From Pseudothermotoga elfii DSM 9442 = NBRC 107921 (GTDB taxonomy: Bacteria > Thermotogota > Thermotogae > Thermotogales > DSM-5069), in NCBI RefSeq assembly GCF_000504085.1, contig NC_022792.1, positions 1,054,001 to 1,118,000 of the forward strand: 64,000 bases of DNA. Reading direction: 5' to 3'. Below are positions 13,930 to 17,795 of this stretch, one piece after another; within the stretch, counting starts at the first letter, position 1, and every line of letters begins with the position of its first letter. Below the pieces are notes generated by a model that saw nothing but the letters and a program-made list of their open reading frames with translations, searched no databases and had not been told where the DNA came from. The position numbers and the translations under genes were made by a program.

Positions 13930-13952
13930 AGCGGGTGCGATCTTACCCGCTT
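13929..13952. terminator. Terminator between convergent operons
   Basis: AAGCGGGT (13929-13936) and ACCCGCTT (13945-13952) form an 8 bp stem with an 8-base loop, followed by CGTTT on the plus strand. It lies at the 3' ends of the converging permease and ABC-2 genes and overlaps the stop region of the latter. T-tracts are short on both sides. Confidence 0.6.
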
Positions 13953-14764
13953 CGTTTCAGCAACCCTTTTTTCTTCGCGTATTTTTCTACGTAATTGAAG
14001 ACAACTATGCCTGCCGGCAAAAGTATAACACCGAGAAACAACAATGGTTTTATCTCCTGAAACAGTTGATTGCTGTTTGCACCATTTAGTATGGCGGCTC
14101 TCATGCCCCTGAGTGCATAAGTGGCAGGTGATAAAGCAGCAACTTTTTGCATCCATTCGGGTAGAACATCTATTTCGTAATAAACACCAGAAAACATAAG
14201 CAGAAGTGCTTGAAAAATGTGAACCACCTGAACGCCTTTTTCAGGGGAAATCAGTGGCAATACAGCACCAGCAACCCCGAGTCCTATAAACGAAATCGAG
14301 GCTGTTGCTAAAACAAGACCGGCGCTGGCAAAATTTGCTTCACTCAGATTCAGTTTGAACAGTAAAGAGACAAATACCAAGATTAGTCCACTTCTTAAAA
14401 CACCATACATAACGCTGAAAAAACATACACTCAAAAGATGTGTTATTCGCTTTACAGGAGCCATGAAAGTGTATTCTATGGTATCTTCCCATCTTTCCCA
14501 TGCAACTGTTTCAGCGACTATTTCAAACAGTACAGAAAGATATCCCCATAGAATTGATCCAATAAGCATATACATGATTAAATAATTTACATCAACCGTT
14601 GCTCCAAAACTAACCGCACCTTTGCCAATAAACCCCATCGTGACTGTATTAGCTATTGTGTAAGCAAAAAAAACTATCTCCCACTTCCAATACCTTTTTA
14701 TCAGGTTGAAATTACGCTCTATAAAAGCTAAAGCAGCTCTCAATTCGTGAACAATGAACTCCAT
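13943..14764 (-). CDS. ABC-2 type transporter permease
   Basis: A 273-residue membrane protein with six hydrophobic segments and an ABC-2 fold. The segment VAWERWEDTIEYTFMAPVKR between helices 2 and 3 is the conserved cytoplasmic loop of DrrB/NodJ-like permeases. ALSPATYALRGMRAAIL near the end is the family's C-terminal signature. It overlaps the ATPase gene by one base, so the pair makes one exporter. Such exporters move drugs, lipids or polysaccharides; the cargo here is unknown. Confidence 0.88.
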   Translation of the reverse strand: MEFIVHELRAALAFIERNFNLIKRYWKWEIVFFAYTIANTVTMGFIGKGAVSFGATVDVNYLIMYMLIGSILWGYLSVLFEIVAETVAWERWEDTIEYTFMAPVKRITHLLSVCFFSVMYGVLRSGLILVFVSLLFKLNLSEANFASAGLVLATASISFIGLGVAGAVLPLISPEKGVQVVHIFQALLLMFSGVYYEIDVLPEWMQKVAALSPATYALRGMRAAILNGANSNQLFQEIKPLLFLGVILLPAGIVVFNYVEKYAKKKGLLKRSG

Positions 14765-15546
14765 CAGACCACCTCCAGATCTATCTGTTCAAAATTTTCT
14801 CCGGTGTATTCGAAGAATACAGTCTCAAGTGACGCGTTTGGATACTTCTTTCTAAGGTTTTCCACGAGCTTTTTTGGTTCGCCTATGACAACCAGTTTTC
14901 CCTTATGGATGATCATTATTCTGTGACATAATTTGTACGCCTCATCCATATCATGCGTAGAAAGAAGTATGGTGCTTCCTTCTGTGCTTGCCTTGTGGAC
15001 AAGTTCCTGAACCTCACGTTTGGCTCTTGGATCAAGCCCGGTTGTTGGTTCATCCAGAAGCAGCAAGCTCGGTTTGGTTAAAAACGCTCGAGCAATAGAA
15101 ACCTTCTGTTGCATCCCGCGGGAAAAATCCTCTATAGGATCTTTCAACCTCGAATGATTGAATCCTATTGAAGCCATCAATTCGTGTATCTTTTTTAAAG
15201 CATATTTTTTGGAAAGTCCATAAATTCCTGCCGAAAAGAAGAGGTTTTCATATGCGGACAATTTTTTGAAAAAACTTGCTTCCACCGATACACGATGAAT
15301 CAGTTTTCTAACCTTTTCTGGTTCCTTATTCACGTCGTGCCCGAAAACTTTTATACTACCTTCATCGGGAATAAGAAGCGTTGCTATCATTCTTATGAGG
15401 GTTGATTTTCCTGACCCATTTGGTCCAAGTATTCCAAATATCTCTCCTTTTTGCACGTCAAAAGACATGTTTTCGATTGCTTTCACGACTTCGCCTTTTT
15501 TTCTCTTGAAAAATTTACTGACATTTTTGACAGATACTGCTAACAT
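14764..15546 (-). CDS. ABC-2 type exporter ATP-binding protein
   Basis: A 260-residue ATPase. Walker A is GPNGSGKST (41-49), the signature is FSRGMQQKVSIA, and Walker B is LLLLDEPTTGLD, followed by the switch histidine in STHDMDEA. This matches DrrA/NatA-like export ATPases. The start at 15546 follows AGAGGTGAG. The frame runs further upstream, but that part overlaps the terminator-like hairpin at 15567-15599 and is not coding. Its permease partner follows with a one-base overlap. Expression is probably governed by the leader described at 15582-15763, a layout seen for drug-inducible exporters. Induction by a translation inhibitor is a hypothesis. Confidence 0.9.
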   Translation of the reverse strand: MLAVSVKNVSKFFKRKKGEVVKAIENMSFDVQKGEIFGILGPNGSGKSTLIRMIATLLIPDEGSIKVFGHDVNKEPEKVRKLIHRVSVEASFFKKLSAYENLFFSAGIYGLSKKYALKKIHELMASIGFNHSRLKDPIEDFSRGMQQKVSIARAFLTKPSLLLLDEPTTGLDPRAKREVQELVHKASTEGSTILLSTHDMDEAYKLCHRIMIIHKGKLVVIGEPKKLVENLRKKYPNASLETVFFEYTGENFEQIDLEVV

Positions 15547-15566: not shown

Positions 15567-15599
15567 AAAAAAGGGGTTGTGCACCTTGCACAACCCCTT
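15567..15599 (-). terminator. Strong terminator in the leader of the ABC-2 exporter genes (attenuator candidate)
   Basis: Read on the minus strand, a perfect 13 bp stem (AAGGGGTTGTGCA / TGCACAACCCCTT, loop AGG) is followed by a T-run. It lies downstream of a 23-codon ORF and 20 bases upstream of the exporter ATPase ATG, on the same strand. Transcription from the promoter at 15735-15763 would normally stop here before the exporter genes. Confidence 0.85.
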
Positions 15600-15697
15600 G
15601 TATTTTGACAAGTTTATTTTTAGGAATCTTCCAGGGCTTTTGCAAGGTGTTTTAACATTATGAACTCGAAACGATACATTGTTTTTCTCACCTTGCA
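15582..15697 (-). promoter_or_regulatory. Three complementary 9-mers: possible antiterminator/attenuator
   Basis: In the minus-strand leader the 9-mer TGCAAGGTG occurs twice: over the leader-ORF start codon (15697-15689), and in the descending arm and loop of the terminator (15590-15582). Its exact reverse complement CACCTTGCA occurs once between them (15649-15641). The middle copy can pair with the first copy, hiding the leader start, or with the last copy, disrupting the terminator. The identities are directly visible; the switching function is inference. Confidence 0.55.
15620..15691 (-). CDS. Leader ORF, 23 codons
   Basis: GTG start at 15691, eight bases after AAAGGGGG. It encodes 23 residues (MRKTMYRFEFIMLKHLAKAL, then EDS) and stops 21 bases before the terminator stem. 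An internal ATG at 15679 would give 19 residues. The position between a consensus promoter and an intrinsic terminator is that of a leader peptide whose translation could control termination into the exporter genes. It could instead be an independent microprotein. No homologue is recognised. Confidence 0.55.
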   Translation of the reverse strand: MRKTMYRFEFIMLKHLAKALEDS

Positions 15698-15734
15698 TGC
15701 CCCCTTTCCTGAGATCCAAAAATCGCTATGTGCT

Positions 15735-15763
15735 ATTCTACAATACTTTCAGGAAAAATGCAA
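15735..15763 (-). promoter_or_regulatory. Sigma-A promoter for the leader ORF and ABC-2 exporter
   Basis: Minus-strand TTGCAT (15763-15758), exactly 17 bases, TAGAAT (15740-15735). The predicted start is near 15728, some 35 bases before the leader-ORF start. Confidence 0.72.
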
Positions 15764-15803
15764 GTACTGTTTTTCAGGGCAACACGCAATTTTTTACACT
15801 TGC

Positions 15804-15832
15804 TTGACGATTATAATTTCGTGTATTATATT
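15804..15832 (+). promoter_or_regulatory. Promoter of the BMP transporter operon
   Basis: TTGACG (15804-15809), 17 bases, TATATT (15827-15832). The start is about 30 bases upstream of the ATG at 15870. It is divergent from the exporter-leader promoter about 40 bases away. Confidence 0.7.
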
Positions 15833-15869
15833 CAATGGTAATTTTCTTAAACAATCAGGGAGGCTTTCG

Positions 15870-17795
15870 ATGAAAAAAATAGTCTTCGTATTTTTGCTTG
15901 TCACTGTACAGATTTTTGCTATTGATATGGATCGTTCTTTGGAGATCTACAGAACTCTGGTTGATAATTACGCTGAAGGAAATTATTCGGATGAGTTTTT
16001 GTCGTTCGTGAACAGAGAGATCAAAAACCTGTCACTTTATAGATATTACAGACTGTTGATTGCTGGAAGTATTGATAAACGTGAAGCGACTCCGGATGTT
16101 GGGGATTATCTGGGCGTGATGTATGATCATGTTCAGGCAGACGATGAAGATCAAAAGCTTGCTTATGCGCTTTTTCTTTCATATCTTGTTTCACAAATGG
16201 AAAAGAGTAATTTGAGCGTGGATGTTATAATGAAGAACAACGCTTTTATTAAATTTTTTAGCTCTTACAGAGATATCCTTAGCAAGGAGGCAAGAACATT
16301 TTTCACATGGATAATATGTTACAAATTGGGTTTAACAGACACAGCTCCTCCTGTGGAGACTGCCAGGATAACATCTATAGATAGTGTAACCTATTCATTT
16401 CAACCACCCGAAGATTTACCGCACATAAAAGATCTGAGTCGTTTTTACTATTCGGATCCATCTGTTGTGCAATCTGTTGAAGATGCTGTCAAAAGAATAT
16501 TGGATAACTTCTCGAAAGATCCGAGTCGCCTGTCAGCTTATATAAATAGAGAAGCTGCTTTCCTTGCAAGAGACATATCCAAACCAGTAACTACTTTTCA
16601 AGCTGAAGTTGCACAAAATGCGGTTTTGACGACGCCAAAAAATGTAAATCTCTGGTGGATTCGATATATTGTTTATATTGTATTTATCGTAGTGGCCTTG
16701 AGATATAGAAAGCTTTTTACTGCAGCTCTTTCATTTATTGCCTCAGTAGAAACGATCTACCTGTTGTTGTTTTTTGATTTTCTTTCCTCCTCTGATTCAC
16801 TCATTTATGGTATTCTGGCGGTTTTTGGCTTCGTACTGGCTTTTATTTTGTCGCTGAGAACTGCGTTCAGAAAGAAAAGATTTTTAGACCTGTCCATTGC
16901 TACTGCAATAATTCTTTTTATCTTTATCCCATTTGTACCGGAAAGTAAGGAGCTTTCCATGGAAAACTATGATCTTAGAAATTCCGTTTATTACAGTTTG
17001 TTAAAGAAAGATCTTTTTCAAGACGAATTATCCAAAATCTCGTATTTTGTTCGTGATCTGTCGTCTGTTTTGTATGTCAGCATGGATGAAACCAAGACTG
17101 TTCTCAACGATGTAGCTGATGTTTTGCAGAAAGCCAGAAACCTCGAAGCTATAGATGAGATATCTGTGAATGAAAGCCTTTATCTATTATTTTCTAATAA
17201 AATTGCCTTCTACAATTCTGATAATTTCATGCAAAGAACGAAGCTGTTTTCTGGTTTGGCACAAGATCTTGGAACTTATGTTGCAGACGAGAAAAGTCGA
17301 AAATCTGAATTCGAGTCTGCGTACAGAGATTTCTCGACGCACGTGAAAAGGATTATGACTTATTCTGCCGATTATTTGAGAAAAGATTTTGCCGATTATA
17401 TAGAACAACTCTTTTCGATGAAATATCCAATACTCTCAAATATAGCACCAAAGCTTTCTTTACATGATTACATTAGCACCGAAGTCAAGAAACCAAGTAT
17501 ACCTTTGAGCAGAGAAAAAACAGCTCTTTCGATTGCTCTGGCTGCGATGTTTGTATTTTTTATGACTAAGATATCTGGAGCGAAAGTCAGTTTCTTTCCA
17601 TCACTTATTCTGGCTATTTTTTCAATAGTAAAATGGTTTTCTGCCAGAAGCATGGAGGTGTTTGTCGAACAGGGTCTACCAACACTTGTGTTGAAGGAAT
17701 CAGGCTGGTTTAATCCTGGTATATTTTTTATCGCAGTTCTTATTTTTGGTGTTAACCTGTTCAAACTTTTCAGAAAGGGGGCGGATGTTTTATGA
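15870..17795 (+). CDS. Unrecognised membrane protein, 641 aa, head of the BMP transporter operon
   Basis: The start at 15870 follows CAGGGAGG; the frame extends upstream, but without a ribosome binding site and through the promoter. A signal peptide (1-18) is followed by a helical extracytoplasmic domain (about 19-258). Four membrane helices come next (about 261-278, 283-303, 311-329, 339-357), then a second helical soluble domain (about 360-550), then about three helices at the C-terminus. The family is not recognised. It overlaps the BMP binding-protein gene by four bases, so it belongs to the same operon. It may be an accessory or sensor component of that importer, or an envelope protein that merely shares the transcript. 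Confidence 0.75.
   Translation: MKKIVFVFLLVTVQIFAIDMDRSLEIYRTLVDNYAEGNYSDEFLSFVNREIKNLSLYRYYRLLIAGSIDKREATPDVGDYLGVMYDHVQADDEDQKLAYALFLSYLVSQMEKSNLSVDVIMKNNAFIKFFSSYRDILSKEARTFFTWIICYKLGLTDTAPPVETARITSIDSVTYSFQPPEDLPHIKDLSRFYYSDPSVVQSVEDAVKRILDNFSKDPSRLSAYINREAAFLARDISKPVTTFQAEVAQNAVLTTPKNVNLWWIRYIVYIVFIVVALRYRKLFTAALSFIASVETIYLLLFFDFLSSSDSLIYGILAVFGFVLAFILSLRTAFRKKRFLDLSIATAIILFIFIPFVPESKELSMENYDLRNSVYYSLLKKDLFQDELSKISYFVRDLSSVLYVSMDETKTVLNDVADVLQKARNLEAIDEISVNESLYLLFSNKIAFYNSDNFMQRTKLFSGLAQDLGTYVADEKSRKSEFESAYRDFSTHVKRIMTYSADYLRKDFADYIEQLFSMKYPILSNIAPKLSLHDYISTEVKKPSIPLSREKTALSIALAAMFVFFMTKISGAKVSFFPSLILAIFSIVKWFSARSMEVFVEQGLPTLVLKESGWFNPGIFFIAVLIFGVNLFKLFRKGADVL

Follow-up and report, generated by a model that had tools for sequence, protein, structure and literature searches.

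What decides whether the two-component ABC-2 exporter encoded on the minus strand of this stretch of Pseudothermotoga elfii DNA (64,000 nt, hereafter the window) is transcribed, and what part does the short leader ORF upstream of it play? Along the minus strand from 15763 to 15546 one meets in turn a promoter-like site, a ribosome-binding sequence, the leader ORF, a terminator and the exporter ATPase gene, and we interpret this arrangement as a ribosome-mediated, cis-acting transcription attenuator of the exporter, a reading to which we give a probability of roughly 0.83. The features involved are as follows.

15735..15763, minus strand: putative promoter, TTGCAT (15763-15758), 17 nt, TAGAAT (15740-15735); from the sequence, 8 of 12 consensus positions
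15700..15710, minus strand: leader ribosome-binding (SD) sequence AGGAAAGGGGG; anti-SD duplex of -10.6 kcal/mol
15620..15691, minus strand: leader ORF of 23 codons, GTG start at 15691, stop at 15622-15620, peptide (M)RKTMYRFEFIMLKHLAKALEDS; from the sequence
15689..15697, minus strand: strand A, TGCAAGGTG, overlapping the leader start codon; sequence and folding
15641..15649, minus strand: strand B, CACCTTGCA, the complement of TGCAAGGTG, in codons 15-17 of the leader ORF, partner of either A or A'; sequence, helix search and folding
15582..15590, minus strand: strand A', TGCAAGGTG, at the terminator apex; sequence, helix search and folding
15571..15599, minus strand: intrinsic terminator, 13 bp with a loop of 3, then TTTTATT; termination predicted from sequence only
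14764..15546, minus strand: exporter ATPase, ABC_tran, best NCBIfam match DrrA, below cut-off; profile search
13943..14764, minus strand: exporter permease, ABC2_membrane; profile search

The two copies of the 9-mer (15697-15689 and 15590-15582) and the complement between them (15649-15641), as located by the original prediction, proved exact on the minus strand, and the 23-codon ORF with its strong ribosome-binding sequence and the 13-bp terminator (15599-15571) in line with the exporter genes (ATPase ATG at 15546) were likewise confirmed. The description of the promoter as 'consensus' was generous: the TTGCAT-17-TAGAAT site is present, but it matches only 8 of 12 positions and is absent from the 30 sites given by a promoter scan of the window. 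The pairing of A reaches further than the 9-mer, into the GGGG of the SD, and the likeness between A and A' also exceeds nine bases (A, AAAGGGGGCATGCAAGGTG; A', AAGGGGTTGTGCAAGGTG), which means that the terminator arm copies the SD and start of the leader. Two other frames touch the region. A second minus-strand frame (15698-15540), opening with an ATG at 15698, continues for 52 codons across the terminator and into the ATPase start, probably by chance. A divergent ORF of 711 aa on the plus strand (15660-17795) matched nothing in Pfam or NCBIfam; it probably begins well beyond 15660, in which case it does not overlap the leader.

Arrangement and folding both stand out against shuffled sequence. 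The order 9-mer, complement, 9-mer again arose in 3 of 5000 dinucleotide shuffles of the 197 nt from 15567 to 15763, and the leader RNA folds at -59.7 kcal/mol, compared with -40.1 ± 4.0 kcal/mol in shuffles (z = -4.95). Scanning the 64-kb window returned 51 terminator-like hairpins and three leader-terminator pairs, of which this pair alone had overlapping A/B/A' helices. Across the whole genome the pattern GCAAGGTG-N30..60-CACCTTGC occurs in one place (the pattern is self-complementary, hence the single site is listed once per strand). A:B and B:A' are the best ungapped helices of the window element and are mutually exclusive; the two pairings that had been proposed, one sequestering the leader start and the other breaking the terminator, thus both exist, and both are replaced in concert in distant relatives (see below).

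How might these pairings control the exporter? RNA polymerase would make the short leader ORF and then the strong terminator. With no ribosome on the leader, B would fold onto the leader SD and start (A:B), the terminator would form and transcription would stop. A freely reading ribosome would cover B and leave at the stop codon, some 20 nt before the terminator, which would form again. A ribosome held on the first codons, by comparison, would cover A and leave B free to pair with A' at the emerging terminator apex (B:A'), allowing polymerase to continue into the exporter. The ribosome is probably held by a drug acting on early elongation, either slowing or arresting it; a macrolide/ketolide-type arrest motif is rightly placed in about half of the relatives. 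Drug induction as such we infer.

Folding models bear on these steps: in 10 elements, a ribosome footprint reaching from 15 nt upstream to 17 nt downstream of the first P-site base was masked at each codon. In nascent RNA whose terminator apex had just been released, a P site on codons 1-4 gave B:A' at 0.67-1.00 in all 10 elements, and B:A' fell to zero with the ribosome over B. For the window, the modelled nascent RNA went from A:B at 0.96 with no ribosome to B:A' at 0.96-0.99 with a ribosome on codons 1-6, so that in the model it is a ribosome on the first codons that shifts B to the terminator. The modelled switch in the window's nascent RNA holds from 37 to 80 °C, with B:A' at 0.93 at 80 °C for a P site on codons 1-4. 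A reading of the element as a thermosensor is not favoured, since A:B was still 0.87 formed at 80 °C in nascent RNA with no ribosome. With the complete terminator at equilibrium, B:A' in the window reached 0.41-0.57 at 37 °C with the ribosome on codons 3-5 and no more than 0.18 at 80 °C, and termination was favoured in most states, suggesting that the switch must act kinetically. Uncovered nascent RNA already favoured B:A' in 5 of the 10 elements (L004, L056, L066, L105, L151). These two results together imply that the decision would fall during transcription, as is usual for attenuators, with A:B forming before A' is made.

Relatives were sought with the exporter permease as probe. It had matches in 25 of 103 genomes from Thermotogota, the phylum of the window (E ≤ 1e-40), 2 of 54 from Caldisericota, the phylum of Caldisericia (E ≤ 1e-60), 65 of 396 from the class Anaerolineae (E ≤ 1e-60) and 178 of 400 taken from the phylum of Anaerolineae, presumably Chloroflexota (E ≤ 1e-55). 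A DNA-level search of 41 genomes gave matches mostly to the ATPase P-loop region. Before counting, we left out near-identical copies where two collections contained the same genome, loci with less than 60 nt upstream and ATPases of less than 42% identity. A fixed procedure, calling a leader of 15-40 codons with an SD and a stop at most 70 nt from the hairpin, plus a terminator, returned both in 56 of 80 upstream regions of the orthologous exporter. Dropping L161, a spurious leader in a repeat-like stretch, left 55 positive loci, 22 from Thermotogota/Caldisericota and 33 from Anaerolineae, with leaders of 17-35 codons. The paralogues L008 and L009 (43% ATPases) were kept among the 80 and scored as misses, as were L087 and L101, which look positive by eye. 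Among the 25 Thermotogota genomes, 20 were positive by the procedure and one by eye (G068), two were without the element (G006, G007) and two were cut by contig ends (G004, G082). Upstream of the orthologous exporter the same plan is therefore present in 21 of the 23 Thermotogota genomes that could be assessed, in 2 Caldisericota and in 33 of 53 Anaerolineae loci.

Loss of the complementarity in relatives that retain the exporter had been named as the case against an attenuator. Two of the 23 assessable Thermotogota lack the attenuator, but these two have lost leader and terminator altogether; a few loci (L110, L059) do keep both, with helices that are weak or do not overlap. In a held-out set of 60 Chloroflexota loci fetched later, 53 were assessable and 21 had a called leader and terminator. 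Only 4 of these 21 showed overlapping A/B/A' helices, which suggests that some held-out leaders are probably miscalled or differently built.

Several of these loci carry additional parts. Many in Anaerolineae have two terminators in a row between leader and exporter (GCCGTGGGC...GCCCACGGC, e.g. L085, L092, L102), and only the first was used in the A' analysis. Family f11 (L065, L067-L070, L072, L073, L077) has one or two extra short ORFs with good SDs between terminator and ATPase, the last of which is conserved (MKNKIRGSKSVFIDGLVDKQKIEIESRFSRPHYL-like), adjoins the exporter ATPase and is possibly a small subunit or a second leader. L055 and L059 also have extra short SD-preceded ORFs 3' of the terminator, directly before the exporter (MFKMRQPN..., MYSHNYITLEGSS...).

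The letters of the pairing strands differ from clade to clade: TGCAAGGTG in the window, GGCGAGGCAGA/GGCGAAGC in G024, GTGGACAGAG/GGCCGTGGA in G047, GGTGAATACG/GTGAACATG in G046 and GGTGTGGCA/CGTGGCGA in G069. If the pairings were accidental, B of one locus should fit A and A' of other loci as well as its own, and we therefore compared own with swapped partners. The comparison with one locus per clade (n = 8) is the fairest because related loci share letters, and in it own B:A' gave -17.3 against -12.4 kcal/mol for swapped partners and own A:B -19.3 against -12.0 kcal/mol (1 of 20,000 permutations each), the own B:A' partner being the best in 7 of the 8 loci. Own partners were also better over all 55 loci (0 of 20,000 for each pairing), over the 22 Thermotogota/Caldisericota (0 of 20,000 each) and over the 33 Anaerolineae (B:A', 14 of 20,000; A:B, 0 of 20,000). 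Judged locus by locus against shuffles (≤0.05), A:B was significant in 37 of 55 loci and B:A' in only 21 of 55; 34 of 55 had helices overlapping by 4 nt or more, and 26 of 55 passed a joint shuffle test (≤3/300). Ungapped helices, shuffles and swaps were used in place of RNAduplex energies, which permit long bulges; bulged helices, of which family f11 has examples, escape the ungapped method. Among the four sequences of the clade closest to the window, B:A' is 100% paired and has two compensated pairs, and A:B is fully paired with zero compensated pairs. The sequences thus support a concerted rewriting of A, B and A' between clades while the pairing logic stays. The mutually exclusive antiterminator and anti-antiterminator pairings are conserved across the family, more weakly in the held-out set (4 of 21).

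This replacement of letters bears on two other explanations. A riboswitch, a T-box or an RNA-binding protein could control the antiterminator in response to a metabolite or protein, and alternative hairpins before a terminator are indeed common to these classes; we consider this very improbable, since the replacement between clades leaves no fixed binding site, a translatable leader with a strong SD is kept, and no Rfam family matched at gathering score in the window or in 18 related loci apart from one match, in L151, which is a tRNA. The element might also be a stand-alone gene for a short RNA or microprotein with its own terminator, the exporter being transcribed separately. The promoter-like site and terminator could bound a transcript of about 160 nt, and leader peptides are somewhat conserved within family f11, but between clades the peptides vary while the RNA pairings are kept; moreover, the ATPase ATG follows the terminator stem after only 24 nt, with no minus-strand promoter there in the scan, and the element accompanies one exporter in three phyla, all of which makes a separate gene quite unlikely.

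What, then, would hold the ribosome of the proposed attenuator? In the part of the leader encoded before B, the motif [RK]x[RK] occurs in 31 of the 55 leaders, compared with 13.9 ± 2.8 when the residues were shuffled (none of 2000 shuffles reaching it), and in 20 of 38 after dereplication (9.9 ± 2.4), while [RK] pairs at spacings 1, 3 and 4 showed no enrichment in the 55. In each of the 31, the predicted stall site comes before the codons from which a ribosome would cover B. In the text available from two sources, Arg/Lys-X-Arg/Lys is the motif at which ketolides cause arrest and is among those at which macrolides do so, with X in the P site (PMC8298421; PMC6851288). As the idea of the motif had arisen from the 55 leaders themselves, it was tested on the 60 later-fetched loci, where 12 of the 21 leaders had it (6.7 ± 1.7 in shuffles, p = 0.003), or 10 of 19 after dereplication (p = 0.017). 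A control set of 718 further ORFs with an SD, taken from the same loci, had no excess of [RK]x[RK] (232 vs. 223.8), although [RK]xx[RK] was in excess there. The enrichment goes beyond the original prediction and supports its idea of ribosome-targeting drugs. Examples include Lys-X-Arg at codons 3-5 in G049 and G059, whose attenuators are closest to that of the window, RTR at codons 4-6 in L068 and RVR at codons 10-12 in L150. A motif at codons 8-16 would leave A uncovered by the stalled ribosome itself, and the switch would then need hindered pairing across the ribosome or a second, queued ribosome.

The leaders of the window and of G002 lack [RK]x[RK]. This leaves room for a switch that responds to initiation on the leader or to the overall capacity for translation (ribosome availability, cold or energy stress) rather than to a drug, such that any slow early ribosome opens the exporter; in the mask model a ribosome on codon 1 of the window's nascent RNA is also as good as one on codon 5. 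We think this rather unlikely, given that the motif is enriched in relatives, was replicated in held-out loci and shows no excess in control ORFs. A trp/his-type attenuator responding to amino-acid starvation would have the same layout of leader ORF and terminator, but there is no run of codons for a single amino acid in the window leader and none is evident in the relatives' peptides, and its target here would be an exporter; such a response is extremely improbable. Tentatively, and at somewhat less than even odds, we suggest a wider reading of the drug-responsive attenuator: a drug-sensing class common to Thermotogota, Caldisericota and Chloroflexota, in which the 5' arm of the terminator copies the leader SD and start so that one strand either silences the leader or breaks the terminator, the three strands are rewritten together, and the leader carries a macrolide/ketolide-type motif. 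For hot and anaerobic habitats, such a class would imply an old pressure from macrolide-like ribosome inhibitors, or from endogenous compounds that share their site of action, with the ABC-2 exporter removing them.

Ribosome-mediated transcription attenuators are described as controlling ermK and mef/mel (PMC4335068), bmrCD (PMC4191407), and vmlR and lmo0919 (PMC5418344), as far as the available text of these sources goes. On sequence grounds alone, the window element shares with the ermK/mef/bmrCD kind a short SD-led leader ORF upstream and an intrinsic terminator between leader and gene. From what is available of PMC4335068, ermK/ermD and mef(E)/mel (leaders MTHSMRLR and MTASMRLR) likewise combine a leader ORF, an intrinsic terminator, an alternative pairing freed by stalling and a downstream resistance or efflux gene, and have the R/K-X-R/K arrest motif found here in about half of the relatives' leaders. 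They differ in that the middle strand of the present element is located towards the end of the leader ORF and can pair with the SD and start of that same leader, the terminator arm copies the start region, the leaders are longer (17-35 codons), and the exporter family and phyla are other ones. In Bacillus subtilis, bmrB-bmrCD places an ABC exporter, induced by translation inhibitors, under a ribosome-mediated terminator, antiterminator and anti-antiterminator, but the bmr terminator lies inside the 162-nt bmrB coding region and the role of the anti-antiterminator is left open by its authors (PMC4191407, available part). The B. subtilis tlrB (yxjB) leader has an RYR motif of the same R/K-X-R/K kind, with the P site stalled on the middle residue, and a hairpin that also silences the leader; in the portion of PMC6851288 at hand, however, no overlapping antiterminator was found for tlrB, translation control adds to termination, and the target is an rRNA methyltransferase. 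A uORF candidate from comparative genomics, uORFC-6-1 before hflX, shares a conserved Arg-Leu-Arg, but it belongs to Firmicutes and hflX, and the accessible text of PMC8632094 names no Thermotogota or Chloroflexota exporter. That survey includes Thermotogae and does not use 'ABC transporter' in its main text as available, and the main text of a survey of premature terminators and structured RNAs (PMC2965389), to the same extent, contains no word beginning Thermotog- or Chloroflex-. Among the papers listed by literature searches for this exporter-linked element, none described it. The kind of mechanism is thus already known from ermK, mef and bmrCD, while the lineage, the association with this exporter and the start-site-copying terminator appear to be new.

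In the literature surveyed, ribosome-mediated attenuation of resistance genes is described mainly in Firmicutes and Actinobacteria, and here the pairings change letters, not logic, before one exporter in three remote phyla. The arrest specificity of the leaders would offer a handle, readable from sequence, on what an uncharacterised pump exports, and the element itself would be a ready drug-responsive reporter. Tests of own versus swapped pairings can find such switches where Rfam-type sequence families have nothing.

The exporter is nearest to DrrA/DrrB in NCBIfam, below cut-off; neither of the two daunorubicin exporter (DrrAB) models was reached (TIGR01188, 248.8 against a cut-off of 312.45; TIGR01247, 39 against 223.05). 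The bmrCD exporter is of another ABC type. PADLOC gave only generic ATPase matches, and a plasmid search with the ATPase was swamped by generic ABC matches. A detoxification role is plausible. In a PDB search the ATPase was nearest to domains of ABCA-type lipid transporters and the permease had zero matches; the substrate is therefore not readable from structure. In at least one Anaerolineae genome (L126:2452-4447; also noted for L060), two GNAT acetyltransferase genes, one of them two-domain, lie between the ATPase and the permease.
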